Of a stretch of 23,759 nucleotides of DNA, positions 1 to 6,065 are shown in pieces (the first letter of the stretch is position 1; every line of letters begins with the position of its first letter). A model generated the notes under the pieces. That model was not told the origin of the DNA. It searched no databases and was given only the letters and a program-made list of their open reading frames with translations. The position numbers and the translations under genes are program-made. The stretch comes from a virus, in the IMG/VR virus record IMGVR_UViG_3300034103_002886, positions 1-23,759 of that record. One strand, given 5' to 3'.

Positions 1-1
1 A

Positions 2-286
2 TCTACTCTCACTTTTACGCCAACAGCTACGGTCACTTTAACACCAACAGCTACGGTCACTTTAACGCCAACAGCTACGGTCACGTTAACACCAACAGCT
101 ACGGTCACTTTAACGCCAACAGCTACGGTCACGTTAACACCAACAGCTACTCCTACGCCAACATCCACATCAGTACCTATGCTTTCTTATGAAAGAAGCT
201 CAGACGCTCCAATTAGCACAGATCAAAATTGGGGTATATTAAGATCAGTTATTCCAATTAATATACAAGGGTGGGGTGAATCATGA
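2..286 (+). CDS. C-terminal part of a Thr/Pro-repeat protein (5' end outside window)
   Basis: An open frame runs from the window edge to the TGA at 284-286, giving 94 residues of a C-terminus; its start codon lies outside the window. Residues 6-49 are a low-complexity tract of TPTATVTL octapeptides that ends in a TPTPTSTS-like linker. A roughly 40-residue non-repetitive tail follows, ending in WGES. Thr/Pro tracts of this kind usually act as extended linkers in surface or virion proteins, but the functional part of this one is not visible. The stop overlaps the protease start (ATGA at 283-286), so the two genes are probably translationally coupled and work in the same structure. Assignment as a virion or tail protein is inference from that neighbour. 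Confidence 0.75.
17..148 (+). repeat. 24-bp in-frame tandem repeat coding for TPTATVTL
   Basis: There are five full 24-bp copies (17-136) and a partial sixth (137-148). Copies differ only at the third base of two Thr codons: the first codon alternates ACG/ACA and the seventh is ACT or ACG. Copies 2-5 therefore form a 48-bp higher-order unit. The array is in frame with the partial gene and visibly richer in G+C than the surroundings. Near-identity at synonymous sites points to recent expansion by slippage or unequal recombination. Confidence 0.92.
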
Positions 287-2842: not shown

Positions 2843-2870
2843 AAGCGATTACCCAAAAGAGCAATCGCTT
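2843..2870 (-). terminator. Intrinsic terminator for the minus-strand cassette
   Basis: Read on the minus strand, AAGCGATT pairs with AATCGCTT. The inner GCTC/GGGT also pair through two G-U wobbles, giving a 12-bp stem with a UUUU tetraloop followed by a run of seven U. On the plus strand the wobbles become A-C mismatches and the U-run is lost, so the element is directional. It lies between the convergent ends of the protease gene and the minus-strand operon. Confidence 0.85.
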
Positions 2871-2899
2871 AATTTATATAATTATAATAGATTATTTTT

Positions 2900-3211
2900 T
2901 TAATAATTTATCCAATTATTGAAACTATAAGGATAATAAATATCGTATCTATCAATAGGATAAACAATCTGAGATCCATAATAAACACTAATTGGCCTAT
3001 ATTCCACTCTATTTTCTATAACAGGAACCATTCTAACATTTTGAGTTAATACTGGACTATAATAATAGCCATAATAATTATAATATGTTGGATGTCCACT
3101 ATAAACAATAGTTTGCTGAGGAATAACAGGATATTGTTGAACATTTTTATGTTGGCACCAATTAGCCCCACAACAACACAGCATTAATAAGAACAATAAT
3201 ATATACTTCAT
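2900..3211 (-). CDS. Small exported tyrosine-rich protein
   Basis: This is a 103-residue protein of unrecognised family. It opens with a Lys and a hydrophobic stretch (residues 4-16, ILLFLLMLCCCGA), a likely signal peptide or N-terminal anchor. The three Cys recall a lipoprotein signal, but no clean lipobox is present. About 19 of 103 residues are Tyr, including YYNYYGYYY, with many Pro and Val; there is no catalytic signature. It is the second gene of a two-gene minus-strand operon, its ATG overlapping the upstream stop by 4 bases, and is followed by a dedicated terminator. A cell-envelope role, such as blocking superinfection, is inference from the exported nature and moron-like setting. 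Confidence 0.75.
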   Translation of the reverse strand: MKYILLFLLMLCCCGANWCQHKNVQQYPVIPQQTIVYSGHPTYYNYYGYYYSPVLTQNVRMVPVIENRVEYRPISVYYGSQIVYPIDRYDIYYPYSFNNWINY

Positions 3212-3444
3212 GCTTCTACCACATCATTTGATACTGGCACAGTGTTGGTTGAAATTATCTTCTTTGGACGGCCTCTGCTCTTTTTCAGAGAAAGTTTGCG
3301 TCTTTGGCGACGAACCATAGCGGTGCTTATATTTTGTCCTGTCATTTGACTTAGCTTTGACGCTAAAGCCTCATCACATAGTATACCATGATTACTTTGA
3401 ATAAAATCTAATTCTACATTTGACCATTTTTTATAATTAGCCAT
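3208..3444 (-). CDS. Small DNA-binding protein, SANT/Myb-like helices plus AT-hook
   Basis: This is a 78-residue basic protein. Residues 5-50 look like a three-helix DNA-binding fold: an opening Trp7 followed by VELDFIQSNHG, a second helix around 25-34, and a basic third helix ending VRRQRRKL. Residues 56-62 (SRGRPKK) match the AT-hook core RGRP, which binds the minor groove of AT-rich DNA. A good ribosome site (AAAGGAACAG) lies just upstream of the ATG. It is the first gene of the minus-strand operon and is transcribed away from the main operon from a shared divergent promoter carrying a palindrome (3484-3508). It is therefore a natural candidate for an autoregulator. The family assignment is by eye and the target site is inferred. 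Confidence 0.8.
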   Translation of the reverse strand: MANYKKWSNVELDFIQSNHGILCDEALASKLSQMTGQNISTAMVRRQRRKLSLKKSRGRPKKIISTNTVPVSNDVVEA

Positions 3445-3468
3445 AAATCTGTTCCTTTTGTCTATATA

Positions 3469-3496
3469 TTGACTAAAAACGTATCAACCTTATTAT
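3469..3496 (+). promoter_or_regulatory. Probable promoter of the rightward operon
   Basis: TTGACT (3469-3474) is followed after 16 bases by TATTAT (3491-3496), five of six matches to each sigma-70 consensus box. TATACT at 3494-3499 is an alternative -10 with a 19-base spacer. Transcription would start near 3503, just upstream of the ribosome site AAGGAG (3521-3526) of the first rightward gene. Confidence 0.6.
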
Positions 3497-3508
3497 ACTA
3501 AAGGTTGA
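3484..3508. promoter_or_regulatory. Palindromic candidate operator in the divergent promoter
   Basis: Perfect 8-bp inverted arms TCAACCTT (3484-3491) and AAGGTTGA (3501-3508) flank a 9-base AT-only-but-one spacer. The spacer contains TATAAT on the minus strand and TATTAT/TATACT-like elements on the plus strand. A protein bound here would cover both -10 regions. The divergent AT-hook protein is the obvious candidate ligand, by inference only. Confidence 0.6.
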
Positions 3509-3522
3509 CAAGTTTCGTGCAA
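3492..3522 (-). promoter_or_regulatory. Probable promoter of the minus-strand cassette
   Basis: On the minus strand 3497-3492 reads TATAAT, a perfect -10 box. The best -35 candidate is TTGCAC (3522-3517) at 19 bases, which is weak, so the promoter may need an activator or a non-standard sigma factor. It is placed correctly for the DNA-binding protein that starts at 3444. Confidence 0.5.
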
Positions 3523-3531
3523 GGAGTTTTT

Positions 3532-3687
3532 ATGACAAAAGAACAAATTAATCTTATTAATTCTGTTTTGGATATCAAAGCATCTGGTTGTGATGTTTCT
3601 GATCGTGCTATTGCAGCAGATTTAACTTTACCAGAAGGCAAACCCATAGTAGAATTATTAAATGAGCAAAAAGAAAAAAATAGATAA
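3532..3687 (+). CDS. Small protein of unknown function, first gene of rightward operon
   Basis: This is a 51-residue protein of unrecognised family, mostly helical in look. It has a middle SDRAIAADLTLPEG segment that could be part of a helix-turn-helix, but is too short to classify. The ATG at 3532 is chosen over an in-frame TTG at 3505 because AAGGAG (3521-3526) sits 5 bases upstream of it and the TTG has no ribosome site. It is the first gene after the divergent promoter, and its 3' end overlaps the sigma gene by 26 bases, which suggests coupled translation. A leader or regulatory role is possible but unsupported. Confidence 0.7.
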   Translation: MTKEQINLINSVLDIKASGCDVSDRAIAADLTLPEGKPIVELLNEQKEKNR

Positions 3688-4300
3688 TAAAGTTTCAGAA
3701 GAAGATTTTTTAAGAGTATTAGATAATATAGGCAAAAGACTAGCCCATAAATTTCGTTTTGGATATCACGATATTGAAGATATGAAACAGCAAGCGGCTA
3801 TTTTTGCTTTGGAAGGTTTAGAAAAATATGATAATACAAGACCATTAGAAAATTTCTTATGGACGCATGTAAGAAACAGATTGTTTAATTACAAAAGAAA
3901 TAACTATCAAAGACCAGATATTCCTTGTTTATCATGTCCACTATACGATCCTAACTATAAAGTCTCAAAAAATCAATGTTCTAAATATGCAAACAAAGAT
4001 GATTGTGATTTATATTCCACATGGGCAACTCGAAATATTGCCAAAAAGAATATTATGCAACCATCGTATATAGAGTATGATATTAGTAATAATAAAAATT
4101 TTGACTCTAAAATGCAGAATAATGAGATAATAAAATTATTAGACGAAAATATAGAACCAGAATTTAGAGAAAGCTATTTAAGACTTAAGCACGGAGAAAA
4201 AATTCCTAAACAGCAACTTAAAAAATTACAAAGTCATATAGAGCTAATAATAGGAGAGGATAAATGTCAAGAAATATTCCCAAAAAACGAGGACAACTAA
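3662..4300 (+). CDS. Phage RNA polymerase sigma factor (sigma-70 family, divergent)
   Basis: In this 212-residue protein, residues 20-80 follow sigma region 2: a helix with GKRLAHKF, an acidic DIEDMKQQA, then LEKYDNTRPLENFLW and a basic NRLFNYKRNN. These are the core-polymerase and -10 binding parts. Four cysteines at 89, 92, 106 and 115 (spacing C-X2-C-X13-C-X8-C) form a possible zinc site where a housekeeping sigma would continue to region 3. Residues around 156-200 could be a reduced region 4. Such factors redirect host RNA polymerase to middle or late phage promoters, and the shared AGTGTATAAT sites before the portal and fibre genes are candidate targets. No clear ribosome site lies upstream, so coupling to the 51-residue gene is likely. 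It overlaps the next gene by 37 bases. Confidence 0.75.
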   Translation: MSKKKKIDNKVSEEDFLRVLDNIGKRLAHKFRFGYHDIEDMKQQAAIFALEGLEKYDNTRPLENFLWTHVRNRLFNYKRNNYQRPDIPCLSCPLYDPNYKVSKNQCSKYANKDDCDLYSTWATRNIAKKNIMQPSYIEYDISNNKNFDSKMQNNEIIKLLDENIEPEFRESYLRLKHGEKIPKQQLKKLQSHIELIIGEDKCQEIFPKNEDN

Positions 4301-5076
4301 GTCTAGAAGAAGAAAAATTTATAAGAGAAAATATTATAGTTCTATCTGTTGAGGAAATAGCTGAAAATCTAAATAGAAATATTGATCCTATAAATAGATA
4401 TATAAAAGAAAATAATATAACAGCTAGTGAGAACGCTAAAGACCTTGAGATACTAAAAAGGAAATTACATACAAAAACTTTTTGGCACGAAATTACTAGA
4501 CAATTTGATAGTGATACTGGAGAATTAGCATATTTTGAAGATACATGGATAGGTCTAATCCAGCAGTTTAGGGAAGACGTTTTACCAGCAGAAGAACTTC
4601 AGATTAAACAATTTATCACTATAGATATTCTTATTAATCGCAGTATGAAAGAAAGAAAAAGACACATTGCCGAAACTGATAAATTACAACAATTAGTAGA
4701 CAAAGAATATGAAAAACCAGAAGATCAAAGAGATATACCAAGATTAGCCAACTTAGAGACACAATTAAGTTTTGCAAGAAATAGCATAGCAAATTATACA
4801 AATGAATATACTAAATTATTAAATGAACAACAAAAAATTAGCAAGGACCTTAAAGCTACCAGAGAGCAAAGAATAAAAAGAATAGAAGATGGTAAAAGTT
4901 CTTGGATAGGATTAATACGTATGTTAGAAGACGAAACCATCAGAGAAAAAGAAGGTAGAGAAATGGAGATACTCTCTATCGCAACAGAAAAAAATAAAAA
5001 GAAATTAGAAGAATATCATCAATATCAAGATGGTATTATAGATCAACCATTTTTAACACCAGATAGTATACAATGA
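4264..5076 (+). CDS. HTH and coiled-coil protein, possible small terminase subunit
   Basis: This is a 270-residue highly charged protein. Residues 12-50 form a probable helix-turn-helix (LSLEEEKFI, then SVEEIAENLNR and a third helix INRYIKEN). A long region (about 140-250) rich in Glu, Lys and Gln with heptad-like spacing is probably coiled coil. DNA-binding N-terminus plus oligomerising middle is the design of small terminase subunits, which recognise the packaging site, and a large terminase lies downstream in the same operon. Against this, four other genes intervene and the protein is long for a small subunit; a transcription or structural role is equally open. AGGAGAGG (4252-4259) precedes the ATG, inside the sigma gene's end. 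Confidence 0.6.
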   Translation: MSRNIPKKRGQLSLEEEKFIRENIIVLSVEEIAENLNRNIDPINRYIKENNITASENAKDLEILKRKLHTKTFWHEITRQFDSDTGELAYFEDTWIGLIQQFREDVLPAEELQIKQFITIDILINRSMKERKRHIAETDKLQQLVDKEYEKPEDQRDIPRLANLETQLSFARNSIANYTNEYTKLLNEQQKISKDLKATREQRIKRIEDGKSSWIGLIRMLEDETIREKEGREMEILSIATEKNKKKLEEYHQYQDGIIDQPFLTPDSIQ

Positions 5077-6065
5077 CTAAAACAGCAGCCATAACAGGAA
5101 TAACTGGACAGGACGGAAGTTATTTAGCTGAACTATTAATAAATAGTGGATATAATATTGTAGGATTATATAGAAGAAGCAGTAACTCTAATTTCCAAAG
5201 GATTAAACATTTACTTGATAATAAAAAATTAATATTGCAAGAATTTGATATTACTGATCCTTCAGATTGTGTTGACATTATAACTAAACACAGACCACAT
5301 CATTTTTACAATTTGGCAGCACAAAGTCATGTTGCTACAAGCTTCAAACAACCAACAACAACATTTGAAATTAATACAATTGGAGTAATTAATATATTAG
5401 AAAATATTAGAAAGTTTTCATCAACAACTAGATTTTATCAAGCTAGTACAAGCGAAATGTTTGGATCTAATTATATTTTAAATGATGATGGAGAAAAATA
5501 CCAAAACGAAAATACTGGATTTTTACCACAAAGTCCATATGCTGTTTCTAAATTATCTAGTCATAGGATGATACAAATATACAGAGAAGCTTATGGGCTA
5601 TATGCTACTAGTGGTATTTTATTTAATCACGAAAGTCCACGACGCGGAGAAAATTTTGTTACTAGAAAAATTACTAAGTATATAGGCCAACTAGTTAACA
5701 AAAAAACAACTGAAAAATTAAAATTAGGAAATATTAAAGTTGTAAGAGATTGGGGTCATGCCAAGGATTATGTGCTTGCTATGAGGTTAATGCTGTCTCA
5801 TGGTAATCCTGATGATTTTGTTATTAGCACAGGATACTCTCACACTGTTGAATCTTTTCTTGAGCATGCTTTTAAATGTGTTAATTTAAATTATTTGAAT
5901 CATATAGAAATTGACCATAATCTTTACCGACCAATGGAGGTTGAGTTTTGCAGAGGAGACTCAACAAAAGCCAAGAATATTTTAGGATGGCAACCCAAAA
6001 TATCATTTGAGCAACTTGTAGAAGATATGGTTTTTTCAGATATAGAGAATACTAGACATGAATAG
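5073..6065 (+). CDS. gmd: GDP-mannose 4,6-dehydratase
   Basis: This is a 330-residue extended short-chain dehydrogenase that converts GDP-mannose to GDP-4-keto-6-deoxymannose, the precursor of fucose, rhamnose, perosamine and related sugars. The NADP-binding loop is TGITGQDGSYL (8-18). The catalytic set is Thr126 and Glu128 (ASTSEM), Tyr156 and Lys160 (SPYAVSK). The family signature NHESPRRGENFVTRKI (185-200) and VRDWGHAKDYV (223-233) are present. It is slightly shorter than bacterial homologues (about 340-370). It starts at an ATGA overlap with the upstream gene and overlaps the HNH gene by 8 bases, so it is part of the operon and not a loose insert. The second-step reductase is absent here. 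It would act in the host cytoplasm to change O-antigen, capsule or virion glycan supply; the end sugar is unknown. Confidence 0.93.
   Translation: MTKTAAITGITGQDGSYLAELLINSGYNIVGLYRRSSNSNFQRIKHLLDNKKLILQEFDITDPSDCVDIITKHRPHHFYNLAAQSHVATSFKQPTTTFEINTIGVINILENIRKFSSTTRFYQASTSEMFGSNYILNDDGEKYQNENTGFLPQSPYAVSKLSSHRMIQIYREAYGLYATSGILFNHESPRRGENFVTRKITKYIGQLVNKKTTEKLKLGNIKVVRDWGHAKDYVLAMRLMLSHGNPDDFVISTGYSHTVESFLEHAFKCVNLNYLNHIEIDHNLYRPMEVEFCRGDSTKAKNILGWQPKISFEQLVEDMVFSDIENTRHE

Follow-up and report, generated by a model that had tools for sequence, protein, structure and literature searches.

Layout of the locus

The DNA analysed here (the window; 23,759 nt of the viral record IMGVR_UViG_3300034103_002886) carries only two minus-strand genes, the open reading frames (ORFs) of a 78-aa and a 103-aa protein, which overlap by 4 nt (ATGA) and amount to 549 bp as against 22,617 bp of coding sequence. 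In the 52-kb IMG/VR record G001, which is 99.98% identical to the window across 23,757 bp, the same pair is the only one on the reverse strand, except for two small ORFs at the far end. A preliminary description of the sequence had correctly noted two overlapping minus-strand genes in otherwise rightward DNA, and had read this cassette as a moron with its own -10 box, ribosome site and directional terminator, the first product being DNA-binding and the second exported. The features of the locus are as follows.

2843-2870, minus strand: intrinsic terminator of the cassette, with a 12-bp stem, a 4-nt loop and a T tract, from folding and conserved position
2900-3211, minus strand: ORF of the Tyr/Val/Pro-rich 103-aa protein (the cargo), predicted to be exported, member of a positional family
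3208-3444, minus strand: ORF of the 78-aa predicted DNA-binding regulator, with a three-helix fold and an AT-hook-like RGRPKK tail, from relatives and an AF2 model
3469-3496, plus strand: putative rightward promoter of the sigma/terL operon, TTGACT-N16-TATTAT (TTGACT at 3469-3474, TATTAT at 3491-3496)
3484-3508, no strand: perfect inverted repeat with 8-bp arms, TCAACCTT/AAGGTTGA, surrounding the shared -10, from the sequence
3492-3497, minus strand: perfect -10 box TATAAT of the leftward (cassette) promoter, with TATA(A/G)TA kept across a 45-sequence alignment
3504-3515, no strand: conserved box GTTGACAAGTTT (minus strand: AAACTTGNCAAC), candidate operator from the intergenic alignment
3532-3687, plus strand: 51-aa ORF that opens the divergent operon, 42-100% identical in many but not all relatives
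3662-4300, plus strand: sigma-70 region 2-like protein of 212 aa, the regulator's divergent partner (PHROG 1740, Pfam)

In all 85 loci tested, a divergent sigma-like gene and then a gene for a 270-aa helix-turn-helix (HTH) protein lie across the gap from the regulator, and in some of them the 51-aa ORF recognisably precedes the sigma-like gene. The 212-aa protein matches PHROG 1740 (RNA polymerase sigma factor; E 1.9e-6), with Pfam Sigma70_r2 just under the cut-off, and its gene heads an operon that runs on to terL, portal and capsid. Four cysteines in an insert of this protein (C89, C92, C106 and C115) are invariant among ten aligned relatives and may form a zinc site. The 270-aa protein (4264-5076) has an N-terminal HTH-like segment, is encoded in the same operon as terL and is 73-80% identical across relatives, a conservation close to that of terL. 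The terL operon also contains a gene for a GDP-mannose dehydratase-like enzyme (5073-6065), which almost all of the relatives tested retain.

On the other side of the cassette lies an 845-aa subtilase (283-2820), the middle part of which matches baseplate and tail repeat profiles, and upstream of it is tandem repeat DNA with a period of about 75 bp (window 1-150 and G001:29274-29486), which surfaced as secondary matches of the window start. Other, different subtilases are found near the cassette in L015, L062 and L075, and in L057, L061, L077 and L079 a long gene with a GIY-YIG-like motif, read from sequence only, adjoins the regulator/cassette slot.

The probable 78-aa regulator and the proposed shared promoter region

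The 78-aa protein belongs to a family with at least 203 relatives in IMG/VR, in which W7, the block R45-R-Q-R-R-K-L51 (R45-R49, K50, L51) and G58-R59 are invariant. Its AF2 model (mean pLDDT 81) contains helices at 9-18, 24-35 and 41-50 followed by a flexible tail, and these three helices, together with the AT-hook-like RGRP, support the proposal that the first product of the cassette binds DNA. The AT-hook profile PF02178 scores 15.0 bits against the window protein (curated cut-off 17.4) and matches 24 of 35 family members at E <=0.1 (best 0.0012). PHROG 323 ('transcriptional regulator, D5-like') matches six of the 35 at E <=0.01 (best 7e-5), the window protein having no match at that level, and PHROG 14101 ('transcriptional regulator') matches some members (1.2e-4). 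A Foldseek search with the model gave no significant match (best E 0.85), a PDB sequence search returned a single non-significant one (E 0.54), PADLOC profiles matched neither cassette protein at E <=1, and the regulator was not cI-like in any library searched. Kinship between the 78-aa protein and the N-terminal part of the 270-aa HTH protein was considered and is not claimed (hhalign probability 11%).

Presence and absence were scored in loci collected via terL, which avoids a bias towards the 78-aa gene itself. The gene is present in 44 of 44 terL loci with enough flank, always on the strand opposite to terL, divergent from it and 2.3-4.1 kb away; these loci include near-duplicates (one phage in several samples) and thus represent fewer independent cases. 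It is single copy in 20 of 20 large records, no relatives with the same flanks that lack it were seen, and it is under strong purifying selection (dN/dS about 0.02-0.24; 0.04-0.08 between the window and its nearest relatives). The gene is therefore universal in the lineage and does not vary in presence between conserved flanks as a moron would; universality was the first half of what the preliminary description had itself named as refuting its reading.

The gap between regulator and sigma-like gene holds promoter elements for both directions. The rightward promoter pattern has one match in the window against 0.01 expected, and TTGAC-N17-TAYTATA occurs at fixed spacing in 44 of 45 aligned intergenic regions, its 17 spacer bases being variable, a pattern that at the sequence level is typical of sigma-70-type promoters. 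The -10 box ascribed to the cassette is real and conserved, but since the same bases serve as the -10 of the better rightward promoter it does not belong to the cassette exclusively, and the conservation of these bases is common to both promoters and cannot be apportioned between them. The leftward TATAAT has no good -35 (the nearest is TTGCAC at 19 nt), so leftward transcription may be weak or depend on an activator. Beside the shared -10 sits the conserved box, whose pattern AAACTTG[TC]CAA was found once in each of six genome stretches fetched, only at this gap. Covariation of the inverted-repeat arms across relatives is marginal (p 0.02-0.05), which leaves an operator role of the repeat uncertain, and no operator is claimed on the basis of a covarying palindrome. 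A search of viral contigs for the promoter and box together, with a pattern too strict for the window's own spacing, gave five matches, of which one falls in this lineage and the remaining four lack the regulator. The T4-type late promoter TATAAATA was rejected, its count being below chance, and an Rfam search gave no match.

In three relatives of about 200 kb (G012, G019 and G020) the direction of transcription switches at the 78-aa gene, with virion genes running one way and, beyond the switch point, runs of short genes mainly the other way; in the window clade only the cassette remains of the leftward arm. The universal, fixed place of the 78-aa gene facing the sigma-like gene, the conserved gap and this switch point together identify it as a core gene, probably a regulator, and not an inserted cassette. 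The 78-aa protein would bind the compact shared promoter region (approximately 3469-3515) and, when bound, would most likely repress both the rightward sigma-like/terL/portal/capsid operon and its own leftward promoter, a repression whose later release could set the timing of the late genes.

The sign of this regulation is a guess in which repression is only slightly favoured over activation. The specific alternative that the 78-aa protein acts as an activator, or as a partner of sigma, and switches on the late operon at the shared promoter is the strongest of those considered, although it is itself rather unlikely: it draws on the sigma-like gene faced in all loci, on the conserved box adjoining the -10 bases and on a leftward promoter that, without a -35, could need help, whereas the rightward promoter looks so near the sigma-70 consensus (TTGAC, 16-nt spacer, TATTAT) that an activator should be unnecessary.

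The predicted exported cargo and its expression

The second product has no family match in Pfam, PHROGs, NCBIfam or PADLOC, and a PDB sequence search with it gave no match. Direct pattern searching with the 103-aa protein returned the same phage only, and its family emerged only through gene order: of 51 distinct loci, 39 have a cargo-type gene behind the regulator, as opposed to 18 of 1000 random windows (1.8%) that satisfy the same criterion. The gene is missing or relocated in about a quarter of distinct loci, and has further copies elsewhere in G006, G009 and G020. Variable presence thus holds for this gene alone. Members are proteins of about 100 aa with a hydrophobic N-terminus, a body rich in Tyr, Val, Pro and Gln and mostly a C-terminal Tyr. 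The hydrophobic N-terminus, conserved in the family, supports the earlier suggestion that the 103-aa protein is exported; it has no clear lipobox. Its AF2 model is mostly of low confidence (pLDDT 52), shows little order and is too uncertain for a fold search.

The terminator at 2843-2870 folds with -20.2 kcal/mol (z -6.4); as a bare motif it is not significant (one found in 3 kb vs 1.3 in shuffles). In 47 of 51 distinct relatives a terminator comes after either the regulator or the cargo, vs 9 of 1000 random windows, which bears out the directional terminator described earlier. Where the cargo gene abuts or overlaps the regulator gene (15 loci), the terminator comes after the cargo in 14, while in most of the non-abutting loci it lies between the two, so only where the two genes abut is a single transcript likely. 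Among loci with the intervening terminator, a TATAAT precedes the cargo in L014, L024 and L037. In L019, L051, L068 and L077 the T tract is followed directly by the cargo ribosome site and nothing else, a spacing with hardly any space for a promoter, and this suggests that the cargo in these loci is made by terminator read-through.

Sequence divergence indicates that the cargo evolves far faster than the regulator, the dN/dS between the window and its nearest relatives being 0.18-0.43, with values around 1 or higher in a few close pairs. At 0.18-0.43 the gene is not decaying; decay of this frame in relatives was an outcome that the preliminary description had named as refuting its moron reading. 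In the pair L016/L038 the regulator has a dS of 1.44 (near saturation) and the cargo a dS of 0.14, and identity, about 40-75% up to a point shortly before the cargo, rises there to about 90%; this contrast and this jump indicate that the cargo was exchanged by recombination. The 103-aa gene is a variable accessory cargo, which recombines, evolves fast and is absent or moved in some relatives.

The 103-aa protein would be made from the same leftward transcript as the regulator, exported through its predicted signal peptide and active in the envelope, where its likeliest role would be to alter the surface of the infected cell, e.g. against a second phage. As for superinfection exclusion, no sequence relative of known function was found in the libraries searched. 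It is unlikely that the product is instead dispensable and arises merely through read-through, or that it is a structural peptide that has become internalised. The loss or relocation of the gene in about a quarter of loci, the little order in the model and the few pairs with dN/dS near or above 1 speak for this, but the hydrophobic N-terminus, the length of about 100 aa and the C-terminal Tyr have persisted across very divergent members, and the dN/dS towards the nearest relatives is 0.18-0.43.

A probable core regulator with a passenger, and known systems

A true moron, in which both genes would have entered as one independently expressed, cell-changing unit unrelated to the lytic programme, is improbable. 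Morons are dispensable for the phage life cycle and act on the host, usually during lysogeny (PMC7067206). The cassette does have a terminator and a -10 that can be read from the sequence, lies in the window clade on the opposite strand inside plus-strand structural genes, and encodes a predicted exported cargo of no known family. However, its first gene occurs throughout the lineage at a fixed place and under strong constraint, the promoter of that gene is fused to that of the late operon, and 20 records yielded no clear integrase, one match being sub-threshold, which makes a lysogeny moron unlikely. The moron reading is thus partly supported: there is, by its sequence, a separate transcription unit with an accessory second gene, so that it was right in spirit for that gene, and wrong for the first gene, which is core, and for the whole, which was not inserted as a unit. 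Least probable of all is a role of the 78-aa protein in DNA packaging or in the nucleoid (as a small-terminase-like HTH), since its closeness to terL and the resemblance that Foldseek gives to the HTH of the G20C small terminase (prob 0.96, rmsd 1.0 over 47 columns) are offset by an E value of 1.3, by a length of 78 aa that holds the HTH and a tail but no oligomerisation domain, by the strand opposite to terL, whereas small terminases combine both domains and are encoded with terL, and by the 270-aa protein, which is the better candidate.

The reading favoured here, with a probability of about 0.6, is that the cassette consists of a core HTH regulator controlling a promoter region shared by its own gene and the late operon, with an envelope-targeted passenger behind it; the passenger would change fast and be swapped among related phages while the regulator stays. 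More speculatively, a conserved late-gene switch in large, apparently non-integrating aquatic phages may have its leftward transcript used as a slot for a hypervariable exported protein, envelope modification being tied to the switching on of sigma and virion genes and diversified by recombination between phages. The best named terL matches of this group are at about 25% identity, with no close cultured relative. As for the host, a relative sits on one 6.5-kb contig binned as alphaproteobacterial, which is probably mis-binned, and a planctomycete hint, from a planctomycete-type N-terminal motif in the neighbouring subtilase of a relative, was rejected (E 0.012, below the cut-off). What has been located is a probable late-gene switch for a widespread group of large aquatic phages and, at a predictable position, a predicted exported protein family without known relatives, both of them concrete experimental targets. 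It also follows that a moron-like layout in one genome can hide a core regulator, which only comparison reveals.

The nearest known arrangement is that of the cI passengers, where rexAB in lambda and bstA in BTP1 are transcribed from the promoter of the regulator (PMC7067206). As in those systems, an accessory gene sits directly behind a DNA-binding regulator in a slot with varying passengers; unlike them, no clear integrase was found here, the regulator is not cI-like in the libraries searched and the passenger has a predicted signal peptide. Another parallel is the bS21 gene, which lies on the reverse strand within the terL/portal/capsid block of large aquatic phages (PMC9723584). In both cases large uncultivated aquatic phages carry a small conserved gene on the opposite strand within their structural block, but bS21 is a ribosomal protein transcribed with the late genes, as opposed to an HTH protein divergent from a sigma-like gene. 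The opposite-strand promoters with common -10 bases resemble the bidirectional promoters of E. coli, whose elements are pseudo-symmetrical and where activating one promoter can repress the other (PMC12825309); those have been shown in E. coli, whereas the present ones are proposed from conservation. For some 78-aa members the best functional profile match is the D5-like PHROG 323, a profile of 319 positions, in contrast to which the window protein is far shorter and has an AT-hook-like tail. Like Ltp of TP-J34, a phage-encoded exported superinfection-exclusion protein (PMC3952083), the cargo is a small phage protein predicted to be sent to the cell envelope, but Ltp is a lipoprotein of temperate phages and the 103-aa protein has neither a clear lipobox nor recognisable homology to it. 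The present locus differs from these systems in a non-cI regulator, a divergent sigma-like gene, a predicted exported, hypervariable passenger and the absence of a clear integrase.
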